From: Hydrogenovibrio sp. SC-1
GTDB taxonomy: Bacteria; Pseudomonadota; Gammaproteobacteria; Thiomicrospirales; Thiomicrospiraceae
Direction: 5' to 3'
DNA length: 64,000 bases
Assembly (NCBI RefSeq): GCF_002848135.1
Contig: NZ_PKGB01000013.1
Span: 1 to 64,000 of the forward strand
A program made the position numbers and the translations under genes. Positions 1-8,867 of the stretch are shown in pieces. The stretch's first letter is position 1; each line of letters opens with the position of its first letter. The notes beneath the pieces are model-generated. The model was not told where the DNA came from. It made no database searches and saw nothing but the letters and a program-made list of their open reading frames with translations.

Positions 1-1473
1 TTGATCGCAATCCTGATGCATCGCTATTTAGTCACTCCATTGCGACGCTTGAGGCAGTTTGCTTATTATCATGACCGAATTCCCCCTAAACAGCGGTTAA
101 AAGAAATTGAATCCATTCGCTATTCAATGATGAATACCTTTAAGCGGTTGGATGATGAACAGAAGACTCTCTATCGGAATGCGCGCACGGATTCGCTGAG
201 TGGGCTTTCTAATCGTCAGGCTTTGCAGGAGTACTTAAAGCAAACGATTGCCGATTCTGAAAAAACCCATAGTCAATTTGCGTTTTTATTTTTAGATTTT
301 GACGATTTTAAAGCGGTGAACGATTCGCTTGGCCACGATATTGGCGATCAAGTGATTCGTGAAGCCTCAAGAGTATTGGTATCTGAAGTACGCAGCCACG
401 ACTTTATCGCACGAGTGGGGGGTGATGAGTTTGTTATTATTTTAAAACACTTTGAAACACTTGAAACGCTGGGTGCTGAAATTGATGAATTACAAAGAGG
501 GCTTAAGAACGCTGATTTGGCGGGTGAACTGAATATTCATATGAACAGTAGTATTGGCGTGTCCTTTTATCCGAAGGATGGCGATGATTATGTCTCATTA
601 ATGCAAAAAGCTGACATTGCCATGTTCCAAGCGAAACGTGAGGGGAAATCGCGTTATCACTTTTATTCTCATGAGCTTAATGAGCGCGTTCAGAAAAATA
701 TTTATTTAGATAAAGAAATGCGCCAGGCGGTGTTAAATGATGAATACAGCTTGTTTTATCAACCAAAAATTGATCTCAATACCAAACAGGTCATTGGTGC
801 TGAAGCTTTAATTCGTTGGATTCGGCCGGATGGCGAAATGATTTCTCCAGTCGAATTTATTCCATTGGCTGAGGAGAACGGTTTTATCGTTGAATTAGGT
901 CAATGGGTGTTGGAGACGGCGTTAAAACAATTGCAGCTGTGGCAAACGCAATGTCCGAATTTTGTGCTGTCCATTAATGTCGCGACCAAACAACTGTTGG
1001 AAGATAGTTTTTTAGAGAATTTTAAAGAACTGATGAGTCTCTACGAGATTAATCCGAGTAATGTCGACTTGGAAATTACAGAGTATTTGTTTTTAGAACA
1101 GAATGAGCGTAATACCGGGATTATTGACGAGCTTCGTCAGCTTGGGGTATCCATTTCGTTAGATGACTTTGGTACCGGCTTTTCGTCCTTGTCTTATCTT
1201 AAAAAATTCTATGTTGATCAGATTAAAATCGATAAAGCCTTTATTGATGATTATCAATCGGAAAGTGGGGCGATTTTTATTGAAACCATTATCCGTATGA
1301 GTGAGAGCCTAAAGAAAAATATCATTGCCGAAGGGGTTGAAACAGAGCATCAAGCAGATTATTTACGTCAGGCAGGCTGTCACTATGCGCAAGGATTTCT
1401 ATTTTCTAAACCCCTGCCCATTGATGCGTTTGAAGTCTATTGCCAGCAAAATAAGAGCACGTCATCGAGCTGA
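1..1473 (+). CDS. GGDEF-EAL cyclic-di-GMP signalling protein, 5' end cut by window edge
   Basis: This is a membrane-associated cyclic-di-GMP turnover protein whose beginning lies outside the window; the TTG at base 1 is not a real start. Visible residues 1-55 look like the end of a HAMP or membrane-proximal linker. The GGDEF domain follows, with GGDEF at residues 140-144 and an RxxD product-inhibition site (RSHD, 131-134) exactly five residues before it. The EAL domain starts near residue 240 with EAL at 268-270, DDFGTG at 388-393 and the later EGVE and QGF motifs. All key residues of both domains are present, so both activities are possible; family knowledge says one often dominates. The missing N-terminus presumably carries the sensor. 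It converges with the TonB receptor gene, and a CCAGGCCTGG palindrome lies six bases past its TGA. Confidence 0.93.
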   Translation: MIAILMHRYLVTPLRRLRQFAYYHDRIPPKQRLKEIESIRYSMMNTFKRLDDEQKTLYRNARTDSLSGLSNRQALQEYLKQTIADSEKTHSQFAFLFLDFDDFKAVNDSLGHDIGDQVIREASRVLVSEVRSHDFIARVGGDEFVIILKHFETLETLGAEIDELQRGLKNADLAGELNIHMNSSIGVSFYPKDGDDYVSLMQKADIAMFQAKREGKSRYHFYSHELNERVQKNIYLDKEMRQAVLNDEYSLFYQPKIDLNTKQVIGAEALIRWIRPDGEMISPVEFIPLAEENGFIVELGQWVLETALKQLQLWQTQCPNFVLSINVATKQLLEDSFLENFKELMSLYEINPSNVDLEITEYLFLEQNERNTGIIDELRQLGVSISLDDFGTGFSSLSYLKKFYVDQIKIDKAFIDDYQSESGAIFIETIIRMSESLKKNIIAEGVETEHQADYLRQAGCHYAQGFLFSKPLPIDAFEVYCQQNKSTSSS

Positions 1474-3756: not shown

Positions 3757-4314
3757 TCATTCTTTCCATTTAATGGAGCAGCCGATTGAGGGAATTTGCT
3801 CGGTTGGGCCTTTTCCTGTTAGGGCAACTTGCTTCATGGCTTCGAGCAGGTCTCGACGCACGCTTTCGGGCGCGGTTTCTTTGTTAGACGCATCGAGTCG
3901 ACCTCGATATTGCAGTGCTAAATCAGCATTGTAACCAAAAAAGTCGGGGGTACAAACCGCGCCATAGGCCTTGGCAACCTGCTGCGTTTCGTCTAAGACA
4001 TAAGGGAACGGAAAGTCGAATTGATCAGAAACCACTTTCATTTGTTCAAATGAATCTTCAGCATACTCGGTGGGATCATTCGACATAATAGCAATGCTAT
4101 GGATGCCAAATTCGTTTTGTAAAATTCGTGCATCCTTGGCCAGGCGAGGTTGTATGGCTTTGACATAAGGGCAGTGATTACAAATAAACATAATCAGCAA
4201 GCCGTTAGGCCCTTTGGCCTTCTCTAGCGTCCAGTTCTGTCCATCAACGCCCGGTAGATCGAAGTCGATAGCGGCTTGATTAAATTCACAAATAGGGGTG
4301 GTTAAACTGACCAT
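3757..4314 (-). CDS. Thioredoxin-like redoxin family protein
   Basis: This 185-residue protein has the thioredoxin fold of the AhpC/TSA-redoxin group. It carries a CNHC motif (C45, C48) in the context FICNHCPYV and a conserved VCTPDFF segment containing the cis-proline. A late PSIGCSIKW motif is typical of this redoxin subgroup. There is no signal peptide, so it should act in the cytoplasm as a thiol-disulfide oxidoreductase or peroxidase; the substrate cannot be read from sequence. A good Shine-Dalgarno (AGGAGA, six bases before ATG) fixes the start. It lies 21 bases downstream of the antiporter gene on the same strand, so the two may be cotranscribed. Confidence 0.88.
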   Translation of the reverse strand: MVSLTTPICEFNQAAIDFDLPGVDGQNWTLEKAKGPNGLLIMFICNHCPYVKAIQPRLAKDARILQNEFGIHSIAIMSNDPTEYAEDSFEQMKVVSDQFDFPFPYVLDETQQVAKAYGAVCTPDFFGYNADLALQYRGRLDASNKETAPESVRRDLLEAMKQVALTGKGPTEQIPSIGCSIKWKE

Positions 4315-4335
4315 AGTCTTCTCCTAATCGTTTTC

Positions 4336-6009
4336 TTAAACTTCAATGGCAATGGCTTTATCCGTTTTAAAGCCGGCCTCTAATTTTTCGTACAGTAATT
4401 CAAGGTTGTCGCCTGGGGTATATTCGGCAATGCTGACTTGTTTACTCTCAAGCCGTTTTCGCAACTTTTGGGCAATAATCATGGCACTATCGATATCGGA
4501 ATGAGTGGCAAGAATGCAAAACCGTTGTTGGTTTAAGCGGCCAAAATAGTCCGATTTGCGTAGCATGGGTAAAATGATCTGCCCCGTTAAGTCGGCTTTA
4601 TCGCTTTCAAATGCCAGCAGGGCAAAAGGGGCGTGATAGCGTTGTGAACGTGCCATTTCCTTTTCAATGAGCTCTTCAAACACCAAAGCGTTATAGGCTT
4701 GTGATTGGGCATCTTTTTGCAGTAATTTTTTTAGTTGCTGTTTGGCTTCTTCGCCCGATAAGGTATTGTGGTCATCGGCTTTGTCCAGCGCAAAGGCTTC
4801 ATTATTCAGTCGCAAAAACAGGACGAGGAGAGCCGTGTTAACAAACATGGATAGGATGACAACACCGACCACGATTGACATAAAGGCTTCTTTGTAACTG
4901 AAATTATCGGGTAGGGCAAACACCATAATAATGGCCAAGCCGCCTTTCATACCCGCAAAAGTGAGTACGCCTGCCCAGCGAAAAGGGTGTATTTTCCACC
5001 AAATAAGGGGGGTCACGACAAGGAATCGAATCAGAGTGGTGAGTGCGAATACCACTAAGATAGGTAGGTGGTATTGCCAGAGCAGGTTTAAATCGACCAC
5101 ATTGGCAATGGCAATAAAGATGACGCCATTGGCAAACAGCCCTAGATAATGGGCTTCTTTGCGATAGGCTCGAAAGTTGCCATCCGAAGTACTTTCAGTG
5201 TTTAAAAATTGGGTGAGTACCGAGGTGTTGATTTTCTTGTACTGGCCTTCTTTATCAAATAAATATTTGAACAATAAAATGGTGACGACCACGCCTAACA
5301 TTCCAGAGACTTGCAGGTGTTCACCCACAATAAAAGCCAGACTGGCCATAATATACAGCGTGAGAAACTGTTCAACATTATCGGTAAAAAATTTAAACGC
5401 ATAATAGCCTAACATGCCTGCGGTTAAACCAATTAAAATCGATTCAATAAATAGCTTGCCTAGAACAAGGTGTAAACTTGAGGTTTGCAATGTTTGCCCT
5501 TCGATAAGGGGGAGCGCAATAAAGAAGAAAATAATCATTGCGGTGATGTCGTTAAACAGACTTTCGCCTTCGGCATAGAGTTTGAGTTTTTCAGGCAATT
5601 TAAATTTTGCAAAAATAGCCGAAACGGACACCACATCCGTTGCCATCAATGGCGTGAAGAGTGCCAATAACATACCCATAGTGAATTGCTGCTCTGGGGT
5701 GAGCAGCAGGGTTGCTATGATGGCTAGAGCAATCGAAATTAATACCGCGAAAACCGAGAGGTAAATGATTGCCGACAGGTTGTGTCTGAGTTCTGAGCGT
5801 GAAACGCCGAGTACATCCGGAATCAAGATAATCGGGAGCATTAAGTAGACGATATCGGGAAAGTGTTCGCCAAATGCGGATAGGTCAAACACCATATTGG
5901 CTAAGTAAGCAGAGACAATGGCGGTTAGCGCAAAGGGGATTTTAAAGCTTTGTTCAAAAAAACGTGATAGTAATACCACGAGTAAAATAAGGGTAAACAG
6001 TAATAGCAT
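4336..6009 (-). CDS. CPA1-type Na+/H+ antiporter with C-terminal degenerate GGDEF domain
   Basis: Residues 1-400 are a polytopic membrane domain of the cation:proton antiporter family. It shows the TPLMATD segment (T124-D125), the EGESLFND signature (147-154) and a GMKGG motif near 353-357, so monovalent cation/proton exchange in the inner membrane is expected. Residues about 410-450 form a charged linker. Residues about 455-557 resemble a GGDEF domain: RYHAPFALLAFESD matches the start of the fold, and RKSDYFGRL precedes NQQRF exactly where GGDEF would be (493-497). The catalytic signature is therefore lost and the domain should be a non-catalytic regulatory or binding module. The gene lies between two genuine cyclic-di-GMP genes. 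The Shine-Dalgarno is weak. Confidence 0.87.
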   Translation of the reverse strand: MLLLFTLILLVVLLSRFFEQSFKIPFALTAIVSAYLANMVFDLSAFGEHFPDIVYLMLPIILIPDVLGVSRSELRHNLSAIIYLSVFAVLISIALAIIATLLLTPEQQFTMGMLLALFTPLMATDVVSVSAIFAKFKLPEKLKLYAEGESLFNDITAMIIFFFIALPLIEGQTLQTSSLHLVLGKLFIESILIGLTAGMLGYYAFKFFTDNVEQFLTLYIMASLAFIVGEHLQVSGMLGVVVTILLFKYLFDKEGQYKKINTSVLTQFLNTESTSDGNFRAYRKEAHYLGLFANGVIFIAIANVVDLNLLWQYHLPILVVFALTTLIRFLVVTPLIWWKIHPFRWAGVLTFAGMKGGLAIIMVFALPDNFSYKEAFMSIVVGVVILSMFVNTALLVLFLRLNNEAFALDKADDHNTLSGEEAKQQLKKLLQKDAQSQAYNALVFEELIEKEMARSQRYHAPFALLAFESDKADLTGQIILPMLRKSDYFGRLNQQRFCILATHSDIDSAMIIAQKLRKRLESKQVSIAEYTPGDNLELLYEKLEAGFKTDKAIAIEV

Positions 6010-6059: not shown

Positions 6060-8867
6060 TTAGATCCAAGATGCATGTGGGCGCCATGTTTTCAACCAAG
6101 CTTCAATTTCATCCGCTGGCATGGGGCGGGCGATGCCGTAACCTTGTCCTAATAAGCAGCCCAACTTTAACAGACGCTCACCATGCAAAATGGTTTCAAC
6201 TCCCTCGGCAATGGTATTGCGGCCAAAGGCATTTGATAATCCGAGTACGCCTTGAATAATCGCCAGATCTTCTGGGTCTTCTAGCATATCTCGTACGAAC
6301 CCTTGATCAATTTTAATCAAATTGGCTGGTAGACGTTTCAAATAAATCAGTGAAGAATACCCTGTACCAAAGTCATCTAATGCAAAGCCAATCCCTAATT
6401 CATGGCAAGATTCAATGACATTGGAGACGTGGGTTAAGTTGTCAAGAGCACTACTTTCCAATACTTCCAATTCCAGGTCGCCATGACTAATATTCGGATG
6501 GCTTTCTAGCAAAGTTTTTAGGTGGCTGACGAAGTTTGGGGATTCGAGATGAAGTGCATCAATATTGACACTAATTGGCAGGTGAATATCGATCGACTTC
6601 CAGTGCTCAATTTGTTGCATGGCGGTTTTGATGACCCAGTTTCCAAGGTTAATAGACAATTCATGTCCCGCAATGATGGGTAAGAAATCGATGGGTGATA
6701 GAAGACCTTGTTGCGGGTGCTGCCAGCGAATGAGTGCTTCAACGCCAATGACCTCACCTGACTTCATATTGACTTTAGGTTGATAATAAAGGACAAATTC
6801 ATCGTTTGACAAGGCGCTACTGATGCTGGTGATATCGGCATTGTAGTTGCGTAGCAATCGATCCTTTTGGGTGTCAAATAAGTGAAAACAATTCTTGCCT
6901 GCCAGTTTGGCTTGGTACATGGCTTGGTCTGCCTGACGTAGCAGTTGGTCGGCATCGATTTCTTCAACTTGTGGGTAGTAGGTGGCGCCTAAGCTGGCCG
7001 ACACTCTTAAAACATGTTCTCCATCAATAACGGGCTTGTATGCCGCTTGCAGTAAACGTTCAAAAATCATTTCGCTCACTTGTGGCGTTTGCACATCCAC
7101 CAAAACGGCCACAAATTCATCACCACCTAACCGAGCAAGGGTATCCCCTTCCCGTAAAGCATGTTTCATGCGTTGAGCTATTTTGGTCAGCAGGCGGTCT
7201 CCAACTTCATGTCCATATTCGTCGTTGACTTCTTTAAATCCGTCTAAATCCAAGTAAACCACGGCCAATTGTGAATCGCGTCTGAGTGCTTGGTTCATGG
7301 CTAGGTGAAGACGATCGGCGAGTAACACTCGGTTAGGTAGATTGGTGAGGGCATCAAAATGAGCAAGATACTGTAGTTGTTGGTAATGTTCTTTGCGTTC
7401 AGTAATATCTTGAACGGTGCCGAGCGCACGGAGTAAATTCCCGCTATGATCAAAGCTGAATTCGCAGTTTTCTTGTAACCAACGAATTTTGCCATTGACG
7501 AGAATGCGGTGCTCAACTTCGTAAAGTGTTCGTTTGCGAACCGCTTTATCCCAGGTGGATTGAACCAAGTCACGGTCATCTGGGTGGATGAGTTCAAAAA
7601 ATGCGTCTAGATCAATAGGCGAACCAGGCTCCATTCCAAAGATTCGGTAGGTTTCATTTGACCAGCACAAAAGATTATCGGCGACTTCCAATGTCCAGCT
7701 ACCAATTTGACCAACACTTTGCGCTTTTTCAAGTAGCATTTGACTTTCCGCTAGGTGCTGTTCGTCTTCCCAGTGCTGGGTAATGTCATGTGCAACGCCA
7801 AGGATGCCATAGATTTCACCCTCAGTATCTAAAAGGGTCGTTTGGGTAATGGAGAGGAGAACCTCATGTTCGCTGTCCGCAGAAGGCAACCAAGTTTCTC
7901 GTTTAATCGGTCTTTTTGCACTGAGTGCAATTTTGTCGTATTTATTTAGCGCATCCGCAACGGTTGTCGGTAAAAGTTCATCATTGGTTTTTCCGGCAAT
8001 GTCAGCTTCAGCCAGACCAATAAATGCCTCAAAGGCAGGGTTGCATGACTGAAAGTGGCCGCTAGCATCTTTAAACCAGATCAAGTCGGCAATACTATTT
8101 AAGAGTGTTCTAAAGTGATTCTTTTCGGTTGCCAATGCTTGTTGGGTATTGATGTGATCGGTAATGATATAGGCAATGCCAAAGAGTCCAGTTAAGTGAC
8201 CTTCTGAATCGGTAATGGGGTATTTGCGACTATCGAGCGAAAGCGTTTCGTGTTCAAAGTCAAAATGATGTAATTCTTGAGCAACTGTCTTCCCTGTGAA
8301 AACCGCCTGTTCTTGTAGGTACTCTTTGTCTGCGATGGCTTCAGGAAAAAGGTCATAGCTCGTTAGGCCCGCTATCTCGGGCCAATGGATGTCATTTGCG
8401 GTCATTGACGCTAAGTTTTCACTTGCCGCTATATAAACATGGTTGGTGTCTTTGAAACAGACCAGTTCACAGGCGGCATTGTTCATCATCGCTTGAAACG
8501 CTTGATGCTGGCAAAGGCTTTCATCAGCTTTGAATAGACTTTTAACGGTTTGTAATTTGAGTAATCGCTTGTCGTTATCTGAGTCTTTGCTTGGGTGTAA
8601 TCGCGCTTTAAATATTTCGATGCGCTGGGTTTTCGCATGACGCAGGCGTAGATGAAAAGTATTGTCCTTCGCTGACACATTTTGTACTAATTCCGTTATC
8701 AAGGGAATATCATCAACATGCACTAAAGGTGTGATGCCTTCAGCGAGTTCTGTCAATGCCGCTTCGCTATACCCTAACAAGGCCTGGCAGTCGCCAGTTA
8801 CGTCAAGAACGGATAGTGTTGGGCTGAGAAAAATGCCGAGCGTGCAACGGTTTTTATGAGACGTCAT
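6060..8867 (-). CDS. PAS-PAS-PAS-GGDEF-EAL sensor and cyclic-di-GMP enzyme
   Basis: This 935-residue protein has no obvious membrane segment and should be a soluble sensor. Residues 1-110 are a divergent PAS-like region. Recognisable PAS domains span about 120-237, 245-365 and 380-490, the last with the W-E-x-H-R and GxVQDIT features of the PAS_3 type. The GGDEF domain follows (GGDEF at 581-585, with an RxxD inhibition site REGD at 572-575). The EAL domain has EAL at 710-712, DDFGTG at 831-836, then EGVE and a GQGYG motif. Both catalytic sets look intact. The gene diverges from the lipoprotein gene across a 220-base region containing a perfect palindrome. Its signal is unknown; PAS domains of this kind commonly sense redox state, oxygen or small ligands. 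Confidence 0.95.
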   Translation of the reverse strand: MTSHKNRCTLGIFLSPTLSVLDVTGDCQALLGYSEAALTELAEGITPLVHVDDIPLITELVQNVSAKDNTFHLRLRHAKTQRIEIFKARLHPSKDSDNDKRLLKLQTVKSLFKADESLCQHQAFQAMMNNAACELVCFKDTNHVYIAASENLASMTANDIHWPEIAGLTSYDLFPEAIADKEYLQEQAVFTGKTVAQELHHFDFEHETLSLDSRKYPITDSEGHLTGLFGIAYIITDHINTQQALATEKNHFRTLLNSIADLIWFKDASGHFQSCNPAFEAFIGLAEADIAGKTNDELLPTTVADALNKYDKIALSAKRPIKRETWLPSADSEHEVLLSITQTTLLDTEGEIYGILGVAHDITQHWEDEQHLAESQMLLEKAQSVGQIGSWTLEVADNLLCWSNETYRIFGMEPGSPIDLDAFFELIHPDDRDLVQSTWDKAVRKRTLYEVEHRILVNGKIRWLQENCEFSFDHSGNLLRALGTVQDITERKEHYQQLQYLAHFDALTNLPNRVLLADRLHLAMNQALRRDSQLAVVYLDLDGFKEVNDEYGHEVGDRLLTKIAQRMKHALREGDTLARLGGDEFVAVLVDVQTPQVSEMIFERLLQAAYKPVIDGEHVLRVSASLGATYYPQVEEIDADQLLRQADQAMYQAKLAGKNCFHLFDTQKDRLLRNYNADITSISSALSNDEFVLYYQPKVNMKSGEVIGVEALIRWQHPQQGLLSPIDFLPIIAGHELSINLGNWVIKTAMQQIEHWKSIDIHLPISVNIDALHLESPNFVSHLKTLLESHPNISHGDLELEVLESSALDNLTHVSNVIESCHELGIGFALDDFGTGYSSLIYLKRLPANLIKIDQGFVRDMLEDPEDLAIIQGVLGLSNAFGRNTIAEGVETILHGERLLKLGCLLGQGYGIARPMPADEIEAWLKTWRPHASWI

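Follow-up and report, generated by a model that had tools for sequence, protein, structure and literature searches.

Does an ion exchanger of Hydrogenovibrio sp. SC-1 end in a cyclase-like domain, and if so, what could that domain do for the exchanger? The question is raised by one gene in a window of 64,000 nucleotides (the whole stretch analyzed; positions 1 to 64,000 of contig NZ_PKGB01000013.1, assembly GCF_002848135.1). A preliminary description, made from the sequence alone, had read this gene as a Na+/H+ antiporter fused to a catalytically dead GGDEF domain that could couple ion exchange to c-di-GMP or GTP level. The fusion was borne out by Pfam, by a profile search of the PDB, and by an AlphaFold model; the gene lies on the minus strand (Table 1), with its ATG at 6009 and its stop at 4336-4338. 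The residues quoted for the tail are correct: RYHAPFALLAFESD starts at R457, RKSDYFGRL spans 484-492, and NQQRF spans 493-497. Two features go beyond that description, the excision of helix alpha1 and an intact RxxD I-site. From sequence, models, and analogy with known receptors, we consider it somewhat better than an even chance that the cytosolic tail derives from a diguanylate cyclase domain and now serves as a c-di-GMP receptor regulating an ion/proton antiporter.

Table 1. Features of the antiporter gene and its immediate neighbors, in window positions
Feature	Positions	Strand	Support or conservation
CPA1 antiporter with degenerate GGDEF tail, whole gene, 557 aa	4336..6009	minus	
Membrane exchanger domain, residues 1-402	4804..6009	minus	PF00999; full-length model
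ND motif, N153-D154	5548..5553	minus	Invariant in 17/17 relatives
Linker/helix into tail, residues 403-432; model confidence low at 415-430	4714..4803	minus	
Degenerate GGDEF-fold domain, residues 433-557	4339..4713	minus	Pfam, model, PDB profile search
R457, aligned with WspR R198 (second I-site arginine)	4639..4641	minus	27/27 tails
Short segment at the place of alpha1, residues 469-483, ∼16 residues missing	4561..4605	minus	
R484-K-S-D487 (RKSD), putative RxxD I-site	4549..4560	minus	D in 27/27, R in 24/27 tails
NQQRF, degenerate active-site signature, residues 493-497	4519..4533	minus	
K515, third I-site position, equal to SgmT R794 by spacing from RxxD	4465..4467	minus	K in 22, R in 4, A in 1 of 27 tails
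AhpC/TSA-redoxin gene, directly downstream, 21-bp gap	3757..4314	minus	
PAS-GGDEF-EAL gene, directly upstream, 50-bp gap, possible operon partner	6060..8867	minus	

By its domain, its NHE/NhaP fold, and its ND motif, the N-terminal part is a CPA1-type cation/proton antiporter of putative transport activity and ion specificity. The Pfam Na_H_Exchanger domain (PF00999) covers residues 23-399 (E = 1.2e-25), and the full-length model (pLDDT 79.2) matches structures of SOS1, PaNhaP, SLC9C1, and NHE exchangers, including NHE1. Within the EGESLFND motif, E147, E149, S150, N153, and D154 are invariant in an alignment of 17 relatives; we take N153-D154 to be the Asn-Asp (ND) motif in TM5 of CPA1 exchangers. 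Among NCBIfam models, the protein scores below the cutoffs of TIGR00831 and TIGR00840.

The tail was recognized as a GGDEF domain by several independent routes. Run alone against Pfam, it passes the cutoff for GGDEF (PF00990; E = 6.9e-6; 26.4 bits against a cutoff of 23.8), in agreement with the original assignment. In the full-length protein the same match reaches 23.6 bits, narrowly below the cutoff, so automatic annotation could miss the tail. NCBIfam and PDB searches are consistent with the assignment. Of the 17 relatives, 14 have a tail that PF00990 detects at E ≤ 0.01, and a profile of 17 tails retrieves solved GGDEF cyclases from the PDB with E values down to 3e-17. A hidden Markov model built from the 59 GGDEF domains of the SC-1 genome (2.45 Mb; 13 of the domains have an altered signature) recovers 17/17 tails, the short ones mostly in two pieces. 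The tail model derived from 17 tails (pLDDT 87.6) runs helix, helix, strand, one helix, two strands, helix, strand, helix, strand; the reported consensus core of active cyclases has two helices after the first strand (PMC7439463). By VIA, the model aligns over 131 residues with 3ign, a c-di-GMP-bound GGDEF domain (Z = 17.9, rmsd 1.7), and with WspR, PleD, DosC, and many other cyclases at Z = 17-18; Foldseek matches it to GGDEF structures at E = 2e-9. PelD and BcsE were absent among the fold-search matches listed, which has no bearing either way. An RCK or UspA fold, which the preliminary description had named as the outcome that would overturn its reading, did not appear: at E ≤ 10, Pfam reports only Na_H_Exchanger and GGDEF on this protein and no RCK_C or USP domain, and this listing together with the model rules such a fold out. 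Orthologues keep the GGDEF-like tail at 63-93% identity, and more distant relatives, 36-59% identical over their full length, keep it as well. Because it is retained in orthologues and distant relatives, matched by profiles, and modeled as this fold, the tail is not a chance match.

Sequence and model together indicate that the tail is a catalytically dead GGDEF domain, as had been supposed. The GG[DE]EF signature occurs in none of the 27 tails that we collected. This set counts L004, a near copy of L003 that was left out of A4/A5, and the partial L189 for tail residues only, with the incomplete L039 outside the count; it includes the near neighbors window/L002, L003/L004, and L064/L178. At the position of the metal-binding Asp stands E468, which is variable among tails, and alpha1 (FKxxNDxxGHxxGD), the substrate helix of active cyclases, is missing from both the sequence and the model. 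Since signature, metal Asp, and alpha1 are all lost, the canonical GTP site is gone. The suggested coupling to GTP level is therefore not supported, and GTP sensing by the tail was rejected because the substrate site is deleted. Coupling to c-di-GMP stands as a possibility, given the putative RxxD I-site that is kept.

The residues of this I-site have changed little. RKSD occupies the exact place of the RxxD motif, five residues ahead of the old signature, and a phmmer alignment pairs R457 with WspR R198. WspR is reported to contact c-di-GMP via R242 (of R242xxD245) and R198, and c-di-GMP at its I-site to bridge adjacent GGDEF domains, with R198 supplied by the neighbor (PMC2270323). At a third position, 515, 26 of the 27 tails have a basic residue (Lys or Arg), usually Lys and not Arg; the window tail thus has Lys where SgmT has R794 and PelD has R402. 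This position presumably corresponds to PleD R390. Among 33 I-site cyclases of the SC-1 genome, nine have Lys and five have Arg there, and since Lys is common at this place, K515 neither helps nor hurts the case. R484 is replaced by Ser in L052 and L173, which form the long-tail branch, and by Gly in L174; with three members lacking it, the I-site is not universal among the tails. On an antiporter-domain tree of 24 tips (without L179 and L182), parsimony requires no steps for R457 or D487 and two for R484, compared with 10, 12, and 10 steps for positions 493, 494, and 495 and a median of 6 over 124 columns. Y439, G490, D534, and K542 are likewise unchanged, which brings the positions without any step to six; invariance is thus shared with residues outside the I-site. 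Nor are the I-site arginines needed for the fold, since many GGDEF domains of the SC-1 genome do without them: Arg stands at the R484 position in 36 and at the R457 position in 29 of the 59, and RxxD is complete in 35, three of them among the 13 with altered signatures.

Both halves of the protein resemble systems already described. PelD and BcsE are c-di-GMP receptors that, like the window tail, lack the signature and alpha1 and keep RxxD (PMC7439463, PMC7112168). In both, the absence of alpha1 is reported to leave I-site binding unchanged (PMC7439463), and the RxxD residues of Bacillus cereus PelD are described as required for biofilm formation (PMC7112168). Unlike the window protein, where an ion/proton antiporter carries the domain, PelD and BcsE control exopolysaccharide export and place the domain beside GAF or receiver-like neighbors. 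SgmT and PopA, reported to be receptors with a degenerate A-site and an intact I-site, share with the window tail the kept RxxD beside a degenerate A-site (PMC3509222), but PopA is a response regulator and SgmT a histidine kinase, and neither is a transporter. On the transporter side, CpaA is a K+/H+ antiporter with an RCK_C domain whose export is reportedly activated by c-di-AMP (PMC10243994); it resembles the window protein in joining an antiporter to a cyclic-dinucleotide domain (putative in the window) and differs in its messenger and in the unrelated regulatory domain. SLC9C1, a sperm Na+/H+ exchanger with a cyclic-nucleotide domain that is described as modulated by cAMP (PMC6052114), has the NHE-type fold that the window protein matches structurally, but it is an animal protein that responds to cAMP through a CNBD and carries a voltage sensor. 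The tail profile also matches the C-terminal region of the ammonium transporters 8qj3, 8qj4, and 8qpf (644-661 aa; E = 2.7e-6), which like the window protein are transporters with a cyclase-like end, in a different transporter family. A literature search found no paper on an ammonium transporter with a GGDEF end. No antiporter with a GGDEF tail was found in the open-access literature, as judged by titles and abstract starts. Each half nonetheless has precedent, in c-di-AMP-gated CpaA, cAMP-modulated SLC9C1, and an ammonium transporter with a cyclase-like end.

How might such a tail act on the exchanger? The intact RxxD I-site makes c-di-GMP the likeliest ligand. The catalytic face has been taken apart, with a scrambled signature and neither metal Asp nor alpha1 left, and the product-binding I-site has been retained as R484xxD487, R457, and the basic K515. 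In the receptor reading, c-di-GMP, probably as an intercalated dimer, would bridge the I-sites of the two tails in an antiporter dimer; CPA1 proteins are dimers, so two tails could be bridged as in WspR. Bridging would either lock the membrane domains or free them and would so set the exchange rate, and internal pH and Na+/K+ would thereby be tied to the motile/sessile signal. We infer c-di-GMP binding, dimer bridging, the direction and size of the transport effect, and the cation moved. Gating does not follow from binding, since the I-site of SgmT is reported to bind c-di-GMP and its loss to give no phenotype beyond localization (PMC3509222).

The same frozen residues could serve protein contacts rather than a ligand. 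The tail would then be a ligand-free protein-protein or dimerization module, in which R457, R484, and D487 form a salt bridge or make up a contact surface, for instance toward active GGDEF-EAL proteins or from one protomer to the other. I-site surfaces are known to make such contacts as well, the I-site of GcbC being reported to support its interaction with LapD (PMC12421958). R484 is dispensable in 3/27 tails and R457 and D487 are not, the invariance of the I-site residues is equaled at Y439, G490, D534, and K542, and a PAS-GGDEF-EAL gene is adjacent in the window. We regard this explanation as unlikely, if still the most serious rival: the conserved residues coincide with published c-di-GMP contacts, the same anatomy (without alpha1, with the I-site kept) occurs in two proven receptors, and there is no constant partner gene, the neighbors varying by genus.

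The gene neighborhood bears this variation out. The window gene had been described as flanked by active GGDEF-EAL genes, which holds for the one immediately upstream, encoded on the antiporter's strand; between the antiporter and the other (1-1473, plus strand) lie the redoxin gene and a gene for a TonB-dependent receptor. Both carry Pfam GGDEF and EAL matches, and their activity is predicted from sequence. The order PAS-GGDEF-EAL, antiporter, redoxin recurs only in L002, a close relative. The adjacent GGDEF-EAL gene was rejected as a defining partner, since it immediately adjoins the antiporter nowhere except in the window and L002. The redoxin gene, too, adjoins the antiporter in L002. Elsewhere the neighbors differ among genera: in Thiomicrorhabdus they are presumably cca and an SMR-type gene, and in Hydrogenovibrio presumably an isocitrate dehydrogenase-like gene, all named from sequence. 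Other GGDEF genes lie near several homologues. Of 12 nonredundant loci, 7 have a GGDEF gene within 6 kb, against 2.6 expected by genome density (P of ∼0.006), in a post hoc comparison with hand-entered counts and rough flanks, uncorrected for clustering; this association with the antiporter is a hint, suggestive at most. A promoter and terminator scan gave counts near those of shuffles and did not help with the operon question.

A further alternative is that the old I-site binds a different ligand, through which the tail regulates the antiporter; ppGpp, GTP, another cyclic dinucleotide, and an anionic lipid are examples. The kept basic pocket, in which residue 515 is Lys and not Arg, would suit this, and the PDB matches include PleD structures with c-di-GMP and (p)ppGpp, as given in their titles. 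We find it improbable nonetheless, considering that RxxD with the R198 equivalent is the binding pattern of c-di-GMP, that the canonical GTP site is gone, and that every genome searched has many GGDEF proteins. Each of 17 tail-bearing genomes has 16-56 GGDEF matches; with this number and that in the SC-1 genome, whose c-di-GMP gene set is dense, c-di-GMP is likely available to the tail.

The distribution of the receptor candidate spans two phyla, with the 27 tails found in Gammaproteobacteria and Campylobacterota. Within the family of SC-1, the antiporter was matched in 15/62 genomes, seven of which have the tail. A draw from the class gave matches in 4/274 genomes, all four with the tail, and a draw from the phylum gave 63/398, with a tail in the SC-1 genome only and the listed matches of the others ending by residue 474. 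Among 298 Campylobacterota genomes, 21 matched and seven of the matches extend to residue 549 or beyond; in the family of genome G591, 25/228 matched, with 14 full tails and one partial. The relatives include Thiomicrorhabdus marina, Hydrogenovibrio halophilus, Thiomicrospira sp. WB1, and metagenome-assembled genomes (MAGs) of Sulfurimonas and other Campylobacterales. On a midpoint-rooted tree, which took in only some of the nine tail-less loci L066-L074, tail-bearing proteins cluster apart from all tail-less relatives; because they form one group, the tail sequences are not independent.

Three grades of tail are found: long (L052 and L173), shortened (L062-L065, L178-L182, and L189), and without alpha1 (the window's group, L051, and seven Campylobacterota). 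Judged from sequence, this series reads as a single fusion followed by stepwise erosion, with weak support (66-90) for the branch order among the three grades. L052 (208-2058) and L173 have a GGDEF tail that is of full length but degenerate, with Ser replacing the I-site Arg (STLD); this tail may represent a step that preceded the loss of alpha1, or its I-site may have been lost separately. L182 (G1177), the least eroded of the shortened tails, retains a DLD metal-like motif (IMIDLD) and an REND I-site and has NDGRF where the signature would stand. Near the antiporter of a Sulfurimonas MAG (L106), two 193-aa open reading frames (1024-1605 and 4052-4633), 3 kb apart, share identical first 45 residues, reflecting either a real duplication or an assembly artifact.

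Erosion has not released the tail from selection. In four pairs (Nei-Gojobori count, with dS near saturation in some), dN/dS was 0.093, 0.032, 0.046, and 0.099 for the tail and 0.035, 0.027, 0.065, and 0.081 for the membrane domain. Thus, the tail is under purifying selection, with dN/dS of 0.03-0.10 close to the 0.03-0.08 of the membrane domain. The notion of a functionless relic, left from a protein in which the antiporter was the sensor and the cyclase the output, could draw on the three grades and on the solved ammonium transporters (8qj3, 8qpf) ending in a tail-profile match, by which transporter-GGDEF fusions exist, but we reject it as very improbable in view of this selection and of 27 tails kept across two phyla with six positions that never change.

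More tentatively, and at rather less than even odds in our judgment, the tail-bearing proteins may constitute a family of c-di-GMP-gated cation/proton exchangers in Gammaproteobacteria and Campylobacterota, derived from a single antiporter-cyclase fusion that shed its catalytic half. The flow of the signal would have been reversed, from an exchanger that controls a cyclase to c-di-GMP that controls an exchanger, and the receptor design without alpha1 would have been reached independently of PelD and BcsE. The receptor idea is directly testable because the tail is small, scores around annotation cutoffs, and offers three named residues to mutate.

Control of K+ transporters by c-di-AMP and of an animal Na+/H+ exchanger by cAMP is known, and the usual associations of c-di-GMP are with motility, adhesion, and polysaccharide. 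The antiporter tree would preserve stages of an enzyme domain becoming a receptor. If the receptor reading is true, the switch between motile and sessile life would be directly linked to internal pH and salt in these bacteria (Thiomicrorhabdus, Hydrogenovibrio, and Sulfurimonas relatives).
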